From Glaciihabitans sp. (GTDB lineage: Bacteria > Actinomycetota > Actinomycetes > Actinomycetales > Microbacteriaceae), in assembly GCA_017882805.1 (NCBI GenBank), contig JADGOT010000081.1, positions 1 to 32,511 on the forward strand: a stretch of 32,511 nucleotides of DNA, read 5' to 3'. Positions 3,003 to 32,511 of this stretch are shown here, piece by piece. The notes below the pieces were generated by a model. That model did no database searches, was not told where the DNA came from, and saw only the letters and a list, made by a program, of their open reading frames with translations. The stretch's first letter is position 1. The number at the start of each line of letters is the position of its first letter. A program made the position numbers and the translations under genes.

Positions 3003-4124
3003 GTGCCTGTGAGTACCCGGTTAGTCGACCTCATCGGCGCGACGCTCGACGACTTTCTGGCCGACCGTGGGCCCGCCGTTTCTGCGATTGCCACCGAACT
3101 CAGCCCCTTTGTCGAGTACTCCAGCGCCCTGCTCCGCGGAGGCAAACGATTCCGCGCACTCTTTTGCTATTGGGGTTGGAACGCCGTTGGTGCGGGTCGG
3201 GATGGATTCGACCCGCTCGAGACCCTCGAGCCACCCCGCGACCTCGCGAGCGTAGTGGATGTTGCGGCCGGCCTGGAGATATTCCACGCCGCTGCACTCG
3301 TGCACGACGACATCATGGACAACTCCGATACGCGGCGAGGGATGCCCGCGGCACACAAACGCTTTGCAACGCTGCACGTCGACAACGGCTGGACCGGGTC
3401 AGCGGCTGGCTTCGGGGGCTCGGGCGGGCTGCTCCTGGGCGACCTTCTACTCGGCTGGAGCGACGAGCTCATCGAGCGAGGACTCGCGTTGCTCGATTCG
3501 CGCAAAGCGGCAAACGCCGCACGCGCCGAGTTCAATCGAATGCGCACCGAGGTCACGGCGGGTCAGTATCTTGACATCCTCGAGGAGCGGTCATGGCGAA
3601 GCTCCCCCGAGAGCGAACAGCTCGCTCGGGCGCATCGCGTTCTTGTCTACAAGTCGGCCAAATACAGTGTCGAGGCGCCCCTCGCAATCGGTGCTTCGAT
3701 GGGTGGTGGTAGCGACGAGCAGCTGGCAGCGCTTCGCGCATTCGGACTCCCGCTCGGAATCGCCTACCAACTCCGTGACGACATTCTCGGGGTTTTTGGC
3801 GATCCGGATGTTACGGGCAAGCCCGCCGGAGACGATCTGCGCGAAGGCAAGCGCACCGTACTGATAGCAATCGCGCGGGCCGATCTGCCCGCAACCGCCG
3901 TGCGCCTGCTTGACGAACTCCTGGGCGATCCCAGTCTGGACGGCGAACAGATCCGAATGCTACAACGCACGCTCCTCGACGCGGGCAGCGTCGAGAAAGT
4001 CGAGCGCATGATTGCGCACAACGTCGAGCTAGCGCGGGCGGCCCTCGACGGGGCACCCCTCGATCGTGCTGCCCTACTGCAGTTGGGTCATCTCGCGGAC
4101 ACGGTCATCAACCGAAGGTCCTGA
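3003..4124 (+). CDS. Polyprenyl (geranylgeranyl-type) diphosphate synthase
   Basis: FARM-like VHDDIMDNSDTRRG and SARM-like RDDILGVFGDPDVTGKPAGDDLREGKRT; start GTG 3003 (leaderless) or GTG 3009. Confidence 0.92.
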   Translation: MPVSTRLVDLIGATLDDFLADRGPAVSAIATELSPFVEYSSALLRGGKRFRALFCYWGWNAVGAGRDGFDPLETLEPPRDLASVVDVAAGLEIFHAAALVHDDIMDNSDTRRGMPAAHKRFATLHVDNGWTGSAAGFGGSGGLLLGDLLLGWSDELIERGLALLDSRKAANAARAEFNRMRTEVTAGQYLDILEERSWRSSPESEQLARAHRVLVYKSAKYSVEAPLAIGASMGGGSDEQLAALRAFGLPLGIAYQLRDDILGVFGDPDVTGKPAGDDLREGKRTVLIAIARADLPATAVRLLDELLGDPSLDGEQIRMLQRTLLDAGSVEKVERMIAHNVELARAALDGAPLDRAALLQLGHLADTVINRRS

Positions 4125-27178: not shown

Positions 27179-28099
27179 TTACCTTCGCAGCCTGCTGCCG
27201 GACTCCGGGCGGGGCGGCAGCGGGAGGCCGAGACGGTCGCCGCTGACCCGCGTGAGAACGGATGACCAGGTGCGGAACGGCCGCCAGCCATCCATGATCG
27301 AGGCAATCTGATCCGGGGTAGCCTCGGCGCCCAGTCCGTAGAAGTGAGCGAGGTACGTCGGGAGCCGCGGTTCGACGCCCGTCATGGCGTCCACCGAGCC
27401 GGTTCCGCGAAGCAGGATGAGCGTGCCGTAGGTCGGGCCGATGCCGGGCAGCTTCATCAGGCGCTCCATGCCTTCCTCGGTCGGAACGCTGAGCAGCAGG
27501 TCAGCGTCGAGCTGACCATCGAGCGCGGCTCGGGCGACCGAGTGCAGTCGTTCGATCTTGACCGCTTCGAGACCCTGGACGTATTGCAGCTCGAGCAGCC
27601 GCTCCGGGGTGGGAAACGCAAACAGCCGGTGCGGACCCTCACCGTAAACACGACCGAGTTGTTCGGCAATCCGATTGCGCACGACGGTGCCCTGGGCACG
27701 CTGGCGACGCGCGCTAATGATCGACCACGCCGCAGCCTCGTACGGCGAGTGAAAGGAGACCGGGCGGAGCCCTAGATGCTCGCGCTGCATTGCGCCGAGA
27801 ACCGGGTCTGTCTCGCCGATCGCGGCCCACGCGGTGCCGCTCGCGTTGAGCGAGAGGATGCGACGAACCTGCTTCAGTACCACCTCGGTGTCGGCGTCGC
27901 TCTCGATGTCGCCGGTCAGATCGCCGTTGTCGTGCTGGTTGAGCGAGACGAATGCGTGGTTCCGGAAATCGTCTGCTACGAATGCAAGCTTCATCTGTGC
28001 ATCGGCGTAGGTGGGTCGACCGGTGTTGGGGCCGAAGCCGAAGTGGGACGCCGCCTCGAGTGAGAACGGGCCATCTGGGGTGATGGTGAACTGGGTCAT
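27179..28099 (-). CDS. HhH-GPD DNA-3-methyladenine glycosylase-like (AlkA/COG0122 type) protein
   Basis: MKLPGIGPTYGTLILLRGTGSVDAMTGVEPRL (HhH plus following loop), MDGWRPFRTWSSVL. Confidence 0.8.
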   Translation of the reverse strand: MTQFTITPDGPFSLEAASHFGFGPNTGRPTYADAQMKLAFVADDFRNHAFVSLNQHDNGDLTGDIESDADTEVVLKQVRRILSLNASGTAWAAIGETDPVLGAMQREHLGLRPVSFHSPYEAAAWSIISARRQRAQGTVVRNRIAEQLGRVYGEGPHRLFAFPTPERLLELQYVQGLEAVKIERLHSVARAALDGQLDADLLLSVPTEEGMERLMKLPGIGPTYGTLILLRGTGSVDAMTGVEPRLPTYLAHFYGLGAEATPDQIASIMDGWRPFRTWSSVLTRVSGDRLGLPLPPRPESGSRLRR

Positions 28100-28545
28100 G
28101 ATCTTCCTTCCGATTCTGTGCTGAGGATTTCGAGGGTTCGGCCGAGATCGGCCAATTGCGAGGCGGAGGCGGCCGAGAAGTAGATGTCGTTGAGTCGACG
28201 GGCCTCTGCGGATGCGGCGCGCGCGAGTTCCAGCCCTTCAGGGGTGAGTGCGACCGCCCGCGCGCGTGAGTCGCTTGGGTGCACAGTGCGCTGCAGGATG
28301 TCGCGACGCTCGAGCCCGCGAACGATCTGCGAGGCAGTGTTGGCATCCATGCCCAGACGTGTTGCAACTTCGGCTTGGCGCAGCGCCGGCCATTCGTGTC
28401 TGGCCTGCCGATACAGCGCCATCACGACGAGAAACTGCGGCACCGTAAGCGAGTGTGGCTTCAGGGCCGCGGTCGCCTCGGTGCGCCAGGTCTGCGCTGC
28501 GTGCAGCAGCAGATAGCCAAAGCCACCGCCGGCTGATTCCGCCAT
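28096..28545 (-). CDS. MarR family transcriptional regulator
   Basis: LTVPQFLVVMALYRQ...LRQAEVATRLGMDANTASQIVRGLERRDILQRTVHPSDSRARAVALTPEGLELA; ATGA overlap with the glycosylase gene; start at MAESAGG. Confidence 0.9.
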   Translation of the reverse strand: MAESAGGGFGYLLLHAAQTWRTEATAALKPHSLTVPQFLVVMALYRQARHEWPALRQAEVATRLGMDANTASQIVRGLERRDILQRTVHPSDSRARAVALTPEGLELARAASAEARRLNDIYFSAASASQLADLGRTLEILSTESEGRS

Positions 28546-28570: not shown

Positions 28571-28584
28571 GTACGTATACGTAC
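28571..28584. promoter_or_regulatory. Candidate MarR operator, perfect palindrome GTACGTATACGTAC
   Basis: 14-bp perfect palindrome in the divergent marR/ALDH intergenic region, 26 bp from the marR start. Confidence 0.6.
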
Positions 28585-28672: not shown

Positions 28673-30433
28673 ATGACTCTCACCTCTTCCGCCGCACCGT
28701 CCGCGACAGCGCGTGGTGCGGATGCCACACTCGAGGCGGCCGCGAAGAAGCAACTCGACGCGACCATCGTTCGCCTCGCCGGAAACGAGAAGAGCTATGG
28801 CGCCCTCTCTGTCGCCGACCGCGCAAAGTTGGTCGATCGCGTGCACGCGACGGTGGCCGATGCCGCCGCGGATTGGGTGGATGCCGCGTCCCGCATCAAA
28901 CGCCTCGACGCGGACTCGCCCTACGTGGGCGAGGAGTGGATCTCGGGCCCGTACGCAGTTCTCGCCTCGCTTGCAGTACTGAGCGGTGCGCTCAAGGCCA
29001 TCAGCGCGGGCGCGAGTCCGCTGGCGCACAGCAAGTTCGGTCACGCCCCCGGAAACCGCGTGAGTATTACGGTTCTTCCGGGCTCGGTGAAGGAGTCCAT
29101 CCTCTTCAACGGCTTCCGCTCCGAGGTCTGGATGCCGCCGGGAGTGAGCGCCGAAACGGCAAGGGCCAAGGCCGGGCTTGGCGAACTCACCCCCACCAAA
29201 ACCGATGGCGTCGGCCTCGTGCTCGGCGCGGGCAACATCACGTCAATCCCGCCTCTCGATGTGCTCTACGAACTCTTCGCCAACAACCGGATCTCGTTGC
29301 TCAAGCTCAACCCCGTGCTCGCGGATATGGAACCTGCGTACCGCGCAGCCCTCGCACCGTTGATCGAGGCTGGCTACCTCGAGATTGTCCAGGGTGGCGG
29401 CGAGGTCGGGAGCTACCTCGCGCACCACCCGGGGATTTCGCATGTCCACATCACGGGCAGCTCGGCCACCCACGATGTCGTGGTCTGGGGCCCGGGTCAG
29501 GCTGGCCGCGATCGAAAGAAGGCGGGTACGCCGCTACTTGCCAAACCCATCACCAGCGAGCTGGGAGGCGTCTCACCCATCATCATCGTTCCGGGCAAGT
29601 GGTCGAAGGCCGACCTGACGTTCCAGGCCGAGCACGTCGCAACCCAGCGCCTACACAACGGCGGCTACAACTGCATCGCCGGACAGATCGTCGTGCTCTC
29701 GAGCGACTGGGACCAAAAGGATGCCTTCGTGGCGGAAATCCGGGCTGCTCTCGACCGCGCTCCCGTGCGCGAACCGTGGTACCCGGGAAGCGATGACCGG
29801 GTGAACGCGGCGGCGAAGGCGCACCCGAGCGCAAAGCGTCACGCGAGCGACACGCGACTATTGGTCGAAATCTCCGCGGAAGACGACGCATCCACAATCC
29901 AGAACACCGAGTACTTCTCGCCCGTCCTCGGAGTCGTCGAGGTCGCCGGCACGGGGATCGAGTTTTTCGCGAAGGCGGTAGAGACGGTCAACGCCGACTT
30001 CCTTGGAACCCTGGGTGCCAACGTTCTCATCGATCCGGCGACGCGCAAGAAGCTCGGAGCTGCATTCATGGATCAGATCGCGAACCTGCGCTATGGCACC
30101 GTCGCCATCAATACCTGGACCGGATTCGGGTATCTCACTGCCGGTGCGCCATGGGGCGGATACCCGGGCGCGACGCTGACAGACGTGCAGAGCGGAATCG
30201 GCGTCGTGCACAATGCGCTTCTGATTGATTCGCCCGAGCGTGCGGTGGCCTACGGGCCGTTCCGACCGTTCCCGCGTTCGTTTGGCGGCGGCGAAGCGGC
30301 CCTCTTCCCGAAGCCACCGTGGTTCGTGACGGCCCGCTCGGCGCGCACCACGGGCAAGCGCCTGGTGAATTACGCGAAGAAGCCGTCGTGGCTTCGGATG
30401 CCCGCGGTCTTCGGTTCTGCCTTCCGGGCATAG
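28673..30433 (+). CDS. Aldehyde dehydrogenase family protein
   Basis: ELGGVSPIIIVPGKW with candidate catalytic Glu, HNGGYNCIAGQIVV with candidate catalytic Cys; RBS AAGGAG upstream of ATG 28673. Confidence 0.85.
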   Translation: MTLTSSAAPSATARGADATLEAAAKKQLDATIVRLAGNEKSYGALSVADRAKLVDRVHATVADAAADWVDAASRIKRLDADSPYVGEEWISGPYAVLASLAVLSGALKAISAGASPLAHSKFGHAPGNRVSITVLPGSVKESILFNGFRSEVWMPPGVSAETARAKAGLGELTPTKTDGVGLVLGAGNITSIPPLDVLYELFANNRISLLKLNPVLADMEPAYRAALAPLIEAGYLEIVQGGGEVGSYLAHHPGISHVHITGSSATHDVVVWGPGQAGRDRKKAGTPLLAKPITSELGGVSPIIIVPGKWSKADLTFQAEHVATQRLHNGGYNCIAGQIVVLSSDWDQKDAFVAEIRAALDRAPVREPWYPGSDDRVNAAAKAHPSAKRHASDTRLLVEISAEDDASTIQNTEYFSPVLGVVEVAGTGIEFFAKAVETVNADFLGTLGANVLIDPATRKKLGAAFMDQIANLRYGTVAINTWTGFGYLTAGAPWGGYPGATLTDVQSGIGVVHNALLIDSPERAVAYGPFRPFPRSFGGGEAALFPKPPWFVTARSARTTGKRLVNYAKKPSWLRMPAVFGSAFRA

Positions 30434-30460
30434 CCCTGCCCGGCCAGTAGGCTGGCGCCC

Positions 30461-31840
30461 ATCGAAAAGCAACTGATTCTCGGCGCGTTCGAGGAATTTA
30501 CCCCCAGCTTCATCAGCAACGCGTGGCCGCACGAGCGCAGCAACCCCGCGGGCTTCGCCACGCTCGAATACTGGCAGGAGCTGGCGCGGGAGCTCGACTC
30601 CGCGGGGTTCGACTTCCTGTTCTTTGCCGACGCTCTCGCCTACCCGATGCACGAAGACACGATTCCGGATGTCGTGGTGCGCGAGGCCGTACAGTTCCCC
30701 GTGCATGATCCGCTCACGCTCGTCAGTGGCCTCGCGGCAACGGTCGACCGCCTCGGGTTCGTCGTCACCGCATCCACGACCGCCGAGCAGCCGTACCTGC
30801 TTGCTCGCCGTTTCGCGTCCCTTGACCACCTGACCAAGGGACGCATCGGCTGGAACGTGGTCACGTCCGACATGCAGACTGCTCTCGTCAAACTGCTGGG
30901 CGCTGGCGATGTCACCCCACATGACCGCCGGTATGACCGCGCCGAGGAATTCATTGATCTCACGCTGAAGCTGTGGGAGGGCGGCTGGTCGGACGATCCG
31001 TTCATCCTCGACAAGCAGTCTCGGGTCTTCACCGATCTCAGTAAGGTGCACCGCATCTCGCACGAGGGTGACTTCTATTCGCTGGATGGCTACTTTCCGG
31101 TCAGCCCGTCGCCGCAACGCACTCCGACCTTGTTTCAGGCGGGCGCATCCTCGCGCGGCGTGGAGTTCGCGTCGCGGATCGCCGAGTGCTTCTTCATTCA
31201 GGAGCGCGACCTCGACAAGGCGGCCAAACTCGTTGCCACAATCCGCGCGGAGGTCGAGAAGCGTGGACGAACTGGTGACACGGTGAAGATCATCAACAGC
31301 ATCTCGGTCGTCGTCGCTTCGACCGACGCTGAGGCCGCAGAACTTAGGGCGTCACTGACAGCGGCGCCCAGCCGCGACGCGATGGCCGCGCTTTTCCTCG
31401 GCTGGAGCGGAGTCAATCTGCTCGGGCTTGACCCGGACACGCTGCTCGACGATCTGAGCACAGAGATCGGCAAATCAACGCTCGCGATGTACCAAAACTC
31501 AGGGATGACAGTCGGTCAGGTGCTCGACGCCCTCGCAGAGACGCTGGGCGGCACAAAGGTCACAGGCACGCCGGCACAGGTCGCTGCCGAGATTGAGCGC
31601 ATCGCCGAAGTTACCGACGTCGACGGGTTCCTGATCGAGCACACCTTCGGGAGTCTTTCGACCTATCGGGAGTTCATTGACTCGGTCATGCCCATCCTGC
31701 GTGAGCACGGCGCGATCCCCGAGCATCCACGCTCGGGAACATTGCGCGAGATGCTCACCGGAGCCCCCACCGCGCGCCTCCGGCCGGAGCACCCGGGCTC
31801 GGCATTCCGGCCCGATAACCTAGGGCGAATTCGCGGATAG
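30461..31840 (+). CDS. LLM-class flavin-dependent monooxygenase, NtaA/SnaA/DszA type, probable non-canonical ATC start
   Basis: KQLILGAFEEFTPSFISNAWPHERSNPAGFATLEYWQELARELDSAGFDFLFFADALAYPM precedes the first in-frame ATG (30647); TKGRIGWNVVTS family signature. Confidence 0.8.
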   Translation: MEKQLILGAFEEFTPSFISNAWPHERSNPAGFATLEYWQELARELDSAGFDFLFFADALAYPMHEDTIPDVVVREAVQFPVHDPLTLVSGLAATVDRLGFVVTASTTAEQPYLLARRFASLDHLTKGRIGWNVVTSDMQTALVKLLGAGDVTPHDRRYDRAEEFIDLTLKLWEGGWSDDPFILDKQSRVFTDLSKVHRISHEGDFYSLDGYFPVSPSPQRTPTLFQAGASSRGVEFASRIAECFFIQERDLDKAAKLVATIRAEVEKRGRTGDTVKIINSISVVVASTDAEAAELRASLTAAPSRDAMAALFLGWSGVNLLGLDPDTLLDDLSTEIGKSTLAMYQNSGMTVGQVLDALAETLGGTKVTGTPAQVAAEIERIAEVTDVDGFLIEHTFGSLSTYREFIDSVMPILREHGAIPEHPRSGTLREMLTGAPTARLRPEHPGSAFRPDNLGRIRG

Positions 31841-31858
31841 CGAGCCTAGGCTTTGAGC

Positions 31859-32511
31859 ATGGCCGATGCGCTCGAGATCCCGACGGCGGGCGGCACCGTT
31901 CGCGGCATTCTTGCCGGCGATGTGCGGGAATGGCGGGGCATCCCGTTTGCCGCTCCCCCGATTGGCGAACTGCGGTTTCGCGCGCCAGCGCCCGCAGCAG
32001 CATGGACGGGAGTTCGCGACGCCACGGAATTCGGTCCGGTCGCACCACAGGATCGCAAGGGACCATTTTCGGGCGCGGAAGCAGAAACTCCGCGTAGCGA
32101 AGACTGCCTGACGATCAACGTCGCGGCACCGGCGGCCGCGTCGTCCGGACTGCCCGTCATGGTCTACGTCCACGGCGGCGGGTACAGCGTGGGTTCGCCG
32201 CGAGACACCGCGTTCCGTGGCATCAATTTCGCGCGCCGTGGAGTCATCCACGTCACCTTCAATTACCGGCTCAACGCCTTCGGCTATATCGACTTCAGCG
32301 AGTATGGTGCGGACAACAACCTCGGCCTGCGTGATCAAGTGGCGGCGCTCGAGTGGATTCGCGACAACATTGCCGCGTTCGGCGGTAACCCGGCCAACGT
32401 GACCGTCTACGGCGAAAGCTCGGGCGCAAACGCTGTCACCACGCTCCTCACTCTCCCTGCCGCGCGGGGGCTCTTCGCGCGTGCGATCGCGCAGAGCCCG
32501 CCAAGCAACGC
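31859..32511 (+). CDS. Type B carboxylesterase, truncated by the window end
   Basis: ATG 31859: MADALEIPTAGGTVRGILAGDVREWRGIPFAAPPIGELRFRAP...SEDCLTINVAAP...VMVYVHGGGYSVGS...VTVYGESSGANAVTTLL. Not in the ORF track (runs off the edge). Confidence 0.92.
   Translation, partial: MADALEIPTAGGTVRGILAGDVREWRGIPFAAPPIGELRFRAPAPAAAWTGVRDATEFGPVAPQDRKGPFSGAEAETPRSEDCLTINVAAPAAASSGLPVMVYVHGGGYSVGSPRDTAFRGINFARRGVIHVTFNYRLNAFGYIDFSEYGADNNLGLRDQVAALEWIRDNIAAFGGNPANVTVYGESSGANAVTTLLTLPAARGLFARAIAQSPPSN

Follow-up and report, generated by a model that had tools for sequence, protein, structure and literature searches.

Gene layout and the open reading frame

How is an enzyme translated when its conserved N-terminus lies upstream of the first canonical start codon in its reading frame? 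The question is raised by a gene for an LLM-class flavin monooxygenase (LLM) within a stretch of 32,511 nucleotides, hereafter the window, from a fragmented MAG (84% complete, 371 contigs). An aldehyde dehydrogenase-family gene (ALDH) and LLM lie in one frame, split by a TAG codon, and the frame remains open to the LLM stop (Table 1), as the earlier note had described. Its further reading of the frame also holds: ATG, GTG and TTG are absent across 30434-30646, the first being the ATG at 30647, and a start at that codon would remove 62 residues, counted from the ATC at 30461, of a conserved domain. The note's account left out two CTG codons in the same frame, at 30452 and 30473. As NTG triplets constitute about 4.4% of codons in a Galbitalea sample, the chance of finding none in 71 codons is about 4%, which is not rare in itself.

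The LLM protein belongs to the NtaA/DmoA family by the curated cutoff of TIGR03860 (437 bits against 279.7). The match covers model positions 1-421 of 422 and begins at residue 16 counted from 30434, i.e., at codon 7 from the ATC. Relatives in the PDB include riboflavin lyase (PDB ID: 5w48) and dimethyl-sulfide monooxygenase (PDB ID: 6ak1). Like the NtaA/DmoA FMN-dependent monooxygenases in general (e.g., PDB IDs: 5w48, 6ak1, and 3b9n), LLM matches over its full length from residue 2-3; it differs from them only in its initiation signal. An AlphaFold model based on a six-sequence alignment (pLDDT 40) was left out of consideration. Folding of the 5' end of an LLM mRNA beginning at the ATC was uninformative (z 0.26).

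Table 1. Features of the LLM locus in window coordinates, and atpB loci used for comparison
Feature	Position	Strand	Remarks
MarR-type regulator gene	28096..28545	-	divergent from ALDH; from the ORF list, start by inspection
ALDH gene, 586 aa	28673..30433	+	Pfam PF00171; stop TAG 30431-30433
ALDH stop-to-ATC gap, 27 nt	30434..30460	+	27 nt in L022, 42 nt in L004; frame common to all three copies
TAGGCT, -10 promoter element (TANNNT)	30448..30453	+	hexamer shared with the leaderless esterase and with the LLM promoters of G005 and G. soli, which have leaders
In-frame CTG overlapping the -10 element	30452..30454	+	rival start; untranscribed if the -10 element is used
ATC, proposed start codon	30461..30463	+	7 nt past the -10 hexamer; orthologs have GTG/ATG/TTG there
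LLM-class flavin monooxygenase gene, NtaA/DmoA family, 459 aa	30461..31840	+	stop 31838-31840; TIGR03860, PF00296
In-frame CTG, codon 5	30473..30475	+	rival start; 12-nt leader, weak AAAG match to the anti-Shine-Dalgarno
ATG, first canonical in-frame start	30647..30649	+	use would delete 62 conserved residues
Downstream esterase gene, TAGGCT-N6-ATG (TAGGCT-ttgagc-ATG)	31847..31861	+	leaderless layout inside the window
atpB loci			L165 (G004:C46), L200-L205, L212-L239, L242, L218

Conservation of the N-terminus and of the ATC codon

Comparison was made with other members of the genus of the window MAG (Microbacteriaceae; named member Galbitalea soli), referred to as congeners. In a sister Galbitalea species (G004, also a MAG), the LLM gene occurs on the contigs L004 and L022, and in both of them ATC occupies the same codon as in the window. 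A 35-nt block holding the ATC, GGCCAGTAGGCTGGCGCCCATCGAAAAGCAACTGAT, is identical in the three copies, while the synonymous divergence around it is 0.34-0.43 over codons 2-62 and rises to 0.97 beyond them. Between the window and L004, codons 2-62 differ by 13 synonymous changes and no non-synonymous one (dS 0.42; dN 0, 0/143 sites), and dN over these codons is 0-0.007 across the comparisons of ATC copies; from codon 63 to the end, dS is 0.97 and dN 0.036 (dN/dS about 0.04), with the frame undamaged. The N-terminal sequence, already called conserved on the strength of the window alone, shows a dN of 0 and matches relatives of known structure from residue 2-3 onward, numbering from the ATC.

A dN of 0 at a dS of about 0.4, together with the same ATC in the sister species, indicates that the region is translated, that the gene is not decaying and that the ATC did not arise from a read error. 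The fragmented state of the window genome would lend some color to a sequencing or assembly error or to a gene in decay. Such an explanation can be practically discounted, since a second MAG has the same ATC on two contigs, dN/dS from codon 63 onward is about 0.04 and the frame is intact; the sequencing error considered in the earlier note is, for practical purposes, refuted by the same two contigs. It had also anticipated that relatives might carry ATG at the codon of 30461: GTG or ATG is indeed found in distant relatives, but in the sister species the codon is ATC. The other Microbacteriaceae orthologs have ATG, GTG or TTG at the ATC's codon or at most 4 codons away, and one (L055) has CTG. 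In the phylogenetic tree, the three ATC rows are grouped with support of 100/100, with the GTG-starting G005 and G. soli outside. The carriers of the ATC comprise two species and three contigs, all MAG-derived.

TAGGCT as a promoter element and the leadered congeners

The start region of LLM reads TAGGCT-ggcgccc-ATC, i.e., TAGGCT-N7-ATC, which falls within the leaderless spacing of 6-7 nt. A survey of about 1.29 Mb from Galbitalea found TANNNT before ATG 69 times at 6 nt and 42 times at 7 nt, with about 0-11 occurrences at other spacings, and before GTG 55 times at 6 nt and 22 times at 7 nt. This enrichment is a signature of leaderless genes; about 20% of the predicted genes show the layout, with TAGGCT as the most frequent hexamer in both Galbitalea samples. 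As in leaderless genes, no Shine-Dalgarno sequence is found upstream of the ATC, the best match to the anti-Shine-Dalgarno complement being AGG (3 nt). The first codon, ATC in all three copies, departs from the AUG or GUG of leaderless mRNAs. Judged by its layout, the LLM gene would be leaderless, but it is not a canonical member of this class. Other frames in the window preceded by TANNNT-N6/7-RTG are found at 3003(+), 6032(+), 22328(+), 23162(+), and 22283(-).

A general leaderless use of ATC in the genus was not found in the Galbitalea codon scan. In the scan for TANNNT-N6/7-ATC, the count at spacing 7 (n=15, background about 8) barely exceeds the background, and nearly all the other cases have a usable ATG or GTG; LLM was the only hit with no canonical start upstream, its next NTG far away and a strong coding signal downstream, all three together.

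TAGGCTGGC is likewise present in G005 and Galbitalea soli, where a leader of 24-30 nt, a Shine-Dalgarno sequence and GTG come after it and no ALDH is adjacent. TAGGCT was also considered as a Shine-Dalgarno sequence and rejected: in these two genomes, a separate purine-rich Shine-Dalgarno sequence and the distance of 24-30 nt to the GTG mean that the hexamer cannot serve as one there. The earlier note had put forward TAGGCT in support of an ATC start; ATC is indeed the best supported of the three options it listed, but the hexamer is a -10 promoter element and not a ribosome-binding site.

The presence of TAGGCTGGC with a leader in G005 and G. soli makes it simplest to assume that leader and former start disappeared in the window lineage. 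Gene order changes as well. A MarR-type gene is divergent from LLM and adjoins it in G005, where there is no ALDH. Among the loci, L033 has the MarR homolog divergent and directly beside LLM, without ALDH; the order in the window and in L037 is MarR, ALDH, LLM. ALDH stands directly upstream of LLM in all three ATC copies and adjoins it in 0 other orthologous loci tested. No ALDH of the window type exceeded the search threshold in G001, G002, G003, or G005. The ALDH copies of G004 share 89% identity, compared with 60-66% for the best homologs elsewhere in Microbacteriaceae. Insertion of ALDH and loss of the leader coincide in the three ATC copies and may represent one event.

The shared frame of ALDH and LLM in all three copies would agree with readthrough of the TAG into an ALDH-LLM fusion of about 110-115 kDa, another option of the earlier note. 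This is highly improbable. The stops are TAG, TAG and TAA (TAA in L004), and the linkers differ in length (9 or 14 codons) and in residues, being unrelated upstream of the -10 block, which is not the pattern of a recodable stop. The conserved part of the linker lacks synonymous changes, as promoter DNA would, and LLM orthologs elsewhere in Microbacteriaceae are free-standing genes.

Near-cognate starts elsewhere in Microbacteriaceae

Genes with coding signal upstream of any ATG, GTG or TTG were sought in about 1.8 Mb of Galbitalea sequence (1488 predicted genes). A coding N-terminus without any canonical start is rare in this set: only three genes were flagged, namely LLM (window and sister copy), atpB, and a FAD-dependent oxidoreductase.

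The start of atpB (F0F1 ATP synthase subunit a) has the form GGAG-N6/7-CTG, with no ATG, GTG or TTG, in 33 of the 34 Microbacteriaceae loci first inspected, which span many genera. In two species of one genus (G070 and G133), ATC replaces the CTG behind an intact GGAG; one of them is the remaining locus of the 34, and the second has no canonical start adjoining the ATC. In the atpB locus L218 (G070), an in-frame ATG is also present five codons upstream. The CTG and ATC starts of atpB offer independent but indirect support for AUC and CUG as possible initiation codons in Microbacteriaceae. With CTG across many genera and ATC in one, they also suggest repeated use of near-cognate starts in the family. 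A limited literature search found no paper on the non-canonical start of atpB.

The only plausible start of the FAD-dependent oxidoreductase (L206, L207, and L209, from G000, G004, and G005) is a CTG that overlaps the upstream stop as CTGA; three other congeners have ATG or GTG near the CTGA site. The LLM ortholog L055 (G301) has CTG where close relatives have GTG, and its Shine-Dalgarno-like GAAGG is intact.

Proposed leader loss and initiation of LLM

On balance, ALDH and LLM appear to be two separate genes, the latter having lost its leader and being expressed from a leaderless-type mRNA with AUC as a weak start. The region between the -10 element and the coding sequence of the LLM promoter would have been shortened in the lineage of the window MAG and its sister species, probably when ALDH came between the MarR-type regulator and LLM. 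This would have cost LLM its 5' leader, Shine-Dalgarno sequence and GTG start but spared the -10 TAGGCT, so that the hexamer would now stand 7 nt upstream of an ATC in the place of the former start codon. RNA polymerase would begin at the A of the ATC or at the preceding C, giving a leaderless mRNA or one with a 1-nt leader, and its first codon AUC would be decoded with low efficiency by initiator fMet-tRNA.

The arrangement resembles known systems in part. Leaderless mRNAs are described from mycobacteria (PMC4633059) and as -10-adjacent genes from Deinococcus-Thermus (PMC12340547). As in these actinobacterial mRNAs and -10-adjacent genes, LLM has TANNNT 6-7 nt before its first codon, no Shine-Dalgarno sequence and a layout common in the genome; unlike the known leaderless starts (AUG or GUG), its codon is AUC, for which no activity at this position was reported in M. 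smegmatis. There, leaderless initiation required ATG or GTG, with ATC as the negative control, and ATC had low activity in reporters only behind a Shine-Dalgarno sequence, where ATT was strong (PMC4633059). In ribosome profiling of M. tuberculosis, ATC was not enriched at starts (PMC9094748). A further point against AUC initiation is that the -10 element and the CTG within it could owe their conservation to promoter function alone. Since the data from both species oppose a leaderless ATC, initiation at AUC is argued here from conservation and layout, as are the probable transcription start and order of rearrangement. A limited literature search found no paper that joins leaderless initiation with an ATC start codon. 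AUU starts of the infC type stand behind a Shine-Dalgarno sequence. LLM is similar to AUU and AUC starts of this kind in being a functional gene with a near-cognate AUN start, but it lacks a Shine-Dalgarno sequence and encodes a metabolic enzyme, not a translation factor.

Alternatively, an in-frame CTG might serve as the LLM start: the one at 30452, if ALDH and LLM share a polycistronic mRNA, or the one at 30473, on an mRNA that begins near 30461 and has a 12-nt leader. The lineage does have CTG starts (atpB with a Shine-Dalgarno sequence across the family, the CTGA-overlapping oxidoreductase of three Galbitalea species, and L055 among the LLM orthologs), and both codons are kept in the three ATC copies. 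We regard this as unlikely, because neither codon has a Shine-Dalgarno sequence at proper spacing, the CTG at 30452 lies within the -10 element, and a start at 30473 would lose K3, which is found in most orthologs. CTG was moreover a poor leaderless initiator in M. smegmatis (PMC4633059), which weighs against a CTG start for LLM.

Translational coupling, in which ribosomes from the ALDH stop would reinitiate at the ATC or a CTG 18-42 nt downstream, seems improbable as well. Under such reinitiation, LLM would need neither a Shine-Dalgarno sequence nor a promoter of its own. The two genes are on the same strand with gaps of 27, 27, and 42 nt, ALDH is the immediate upstream neighbor in the three ATC copies and in no other locus tested, and the CTGA overlap of the oxidoreductase makes coupling with weak starts plausible in Galbitalea. 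The gap length varies between copies, however, whereas the block from the -10 element to the ATC is fixed, and the promoter at LLM is also present in congeners without an ALDH neighbor.

Returning to leader loss, it is possible, if not quite probable, that LLM exemplifies a natural leaderless mRNA translated from a 5'-terminal AUC, born of leader loss and maintained by purifying selection in two species. Should AUC serve as a start with no Shine-Dalgarno sequence, the reported requirement of RTG for leaderless translation would not be general; a leaderless 5'-AUC mRNA, if true, would contradict the AUG/GUG rule of Actinobacteria. Gene finders restricted to ATG, GTG and TTG would shorten the enzyme by 62 residues. 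The pair formed by the leadered GTG of the congeners and the leaderless-type ATC of the window makes the step from leadered to leaderless directly testable, and LLM constitutes a clean natural test of the flexibility of bacterial translation starts.

Putative operators

An inverted repeat, GCCAG-TAGG-CTGGC (window 30443-30456), spans the -10 region and is kept in the three ATC copies; it may be an operator or due to chance. A perfect palindrome, GTACGTATACGTAC, lies at 28571-28584 of the window between the divergent MarR-type gene and ALDH and is likely an operator.
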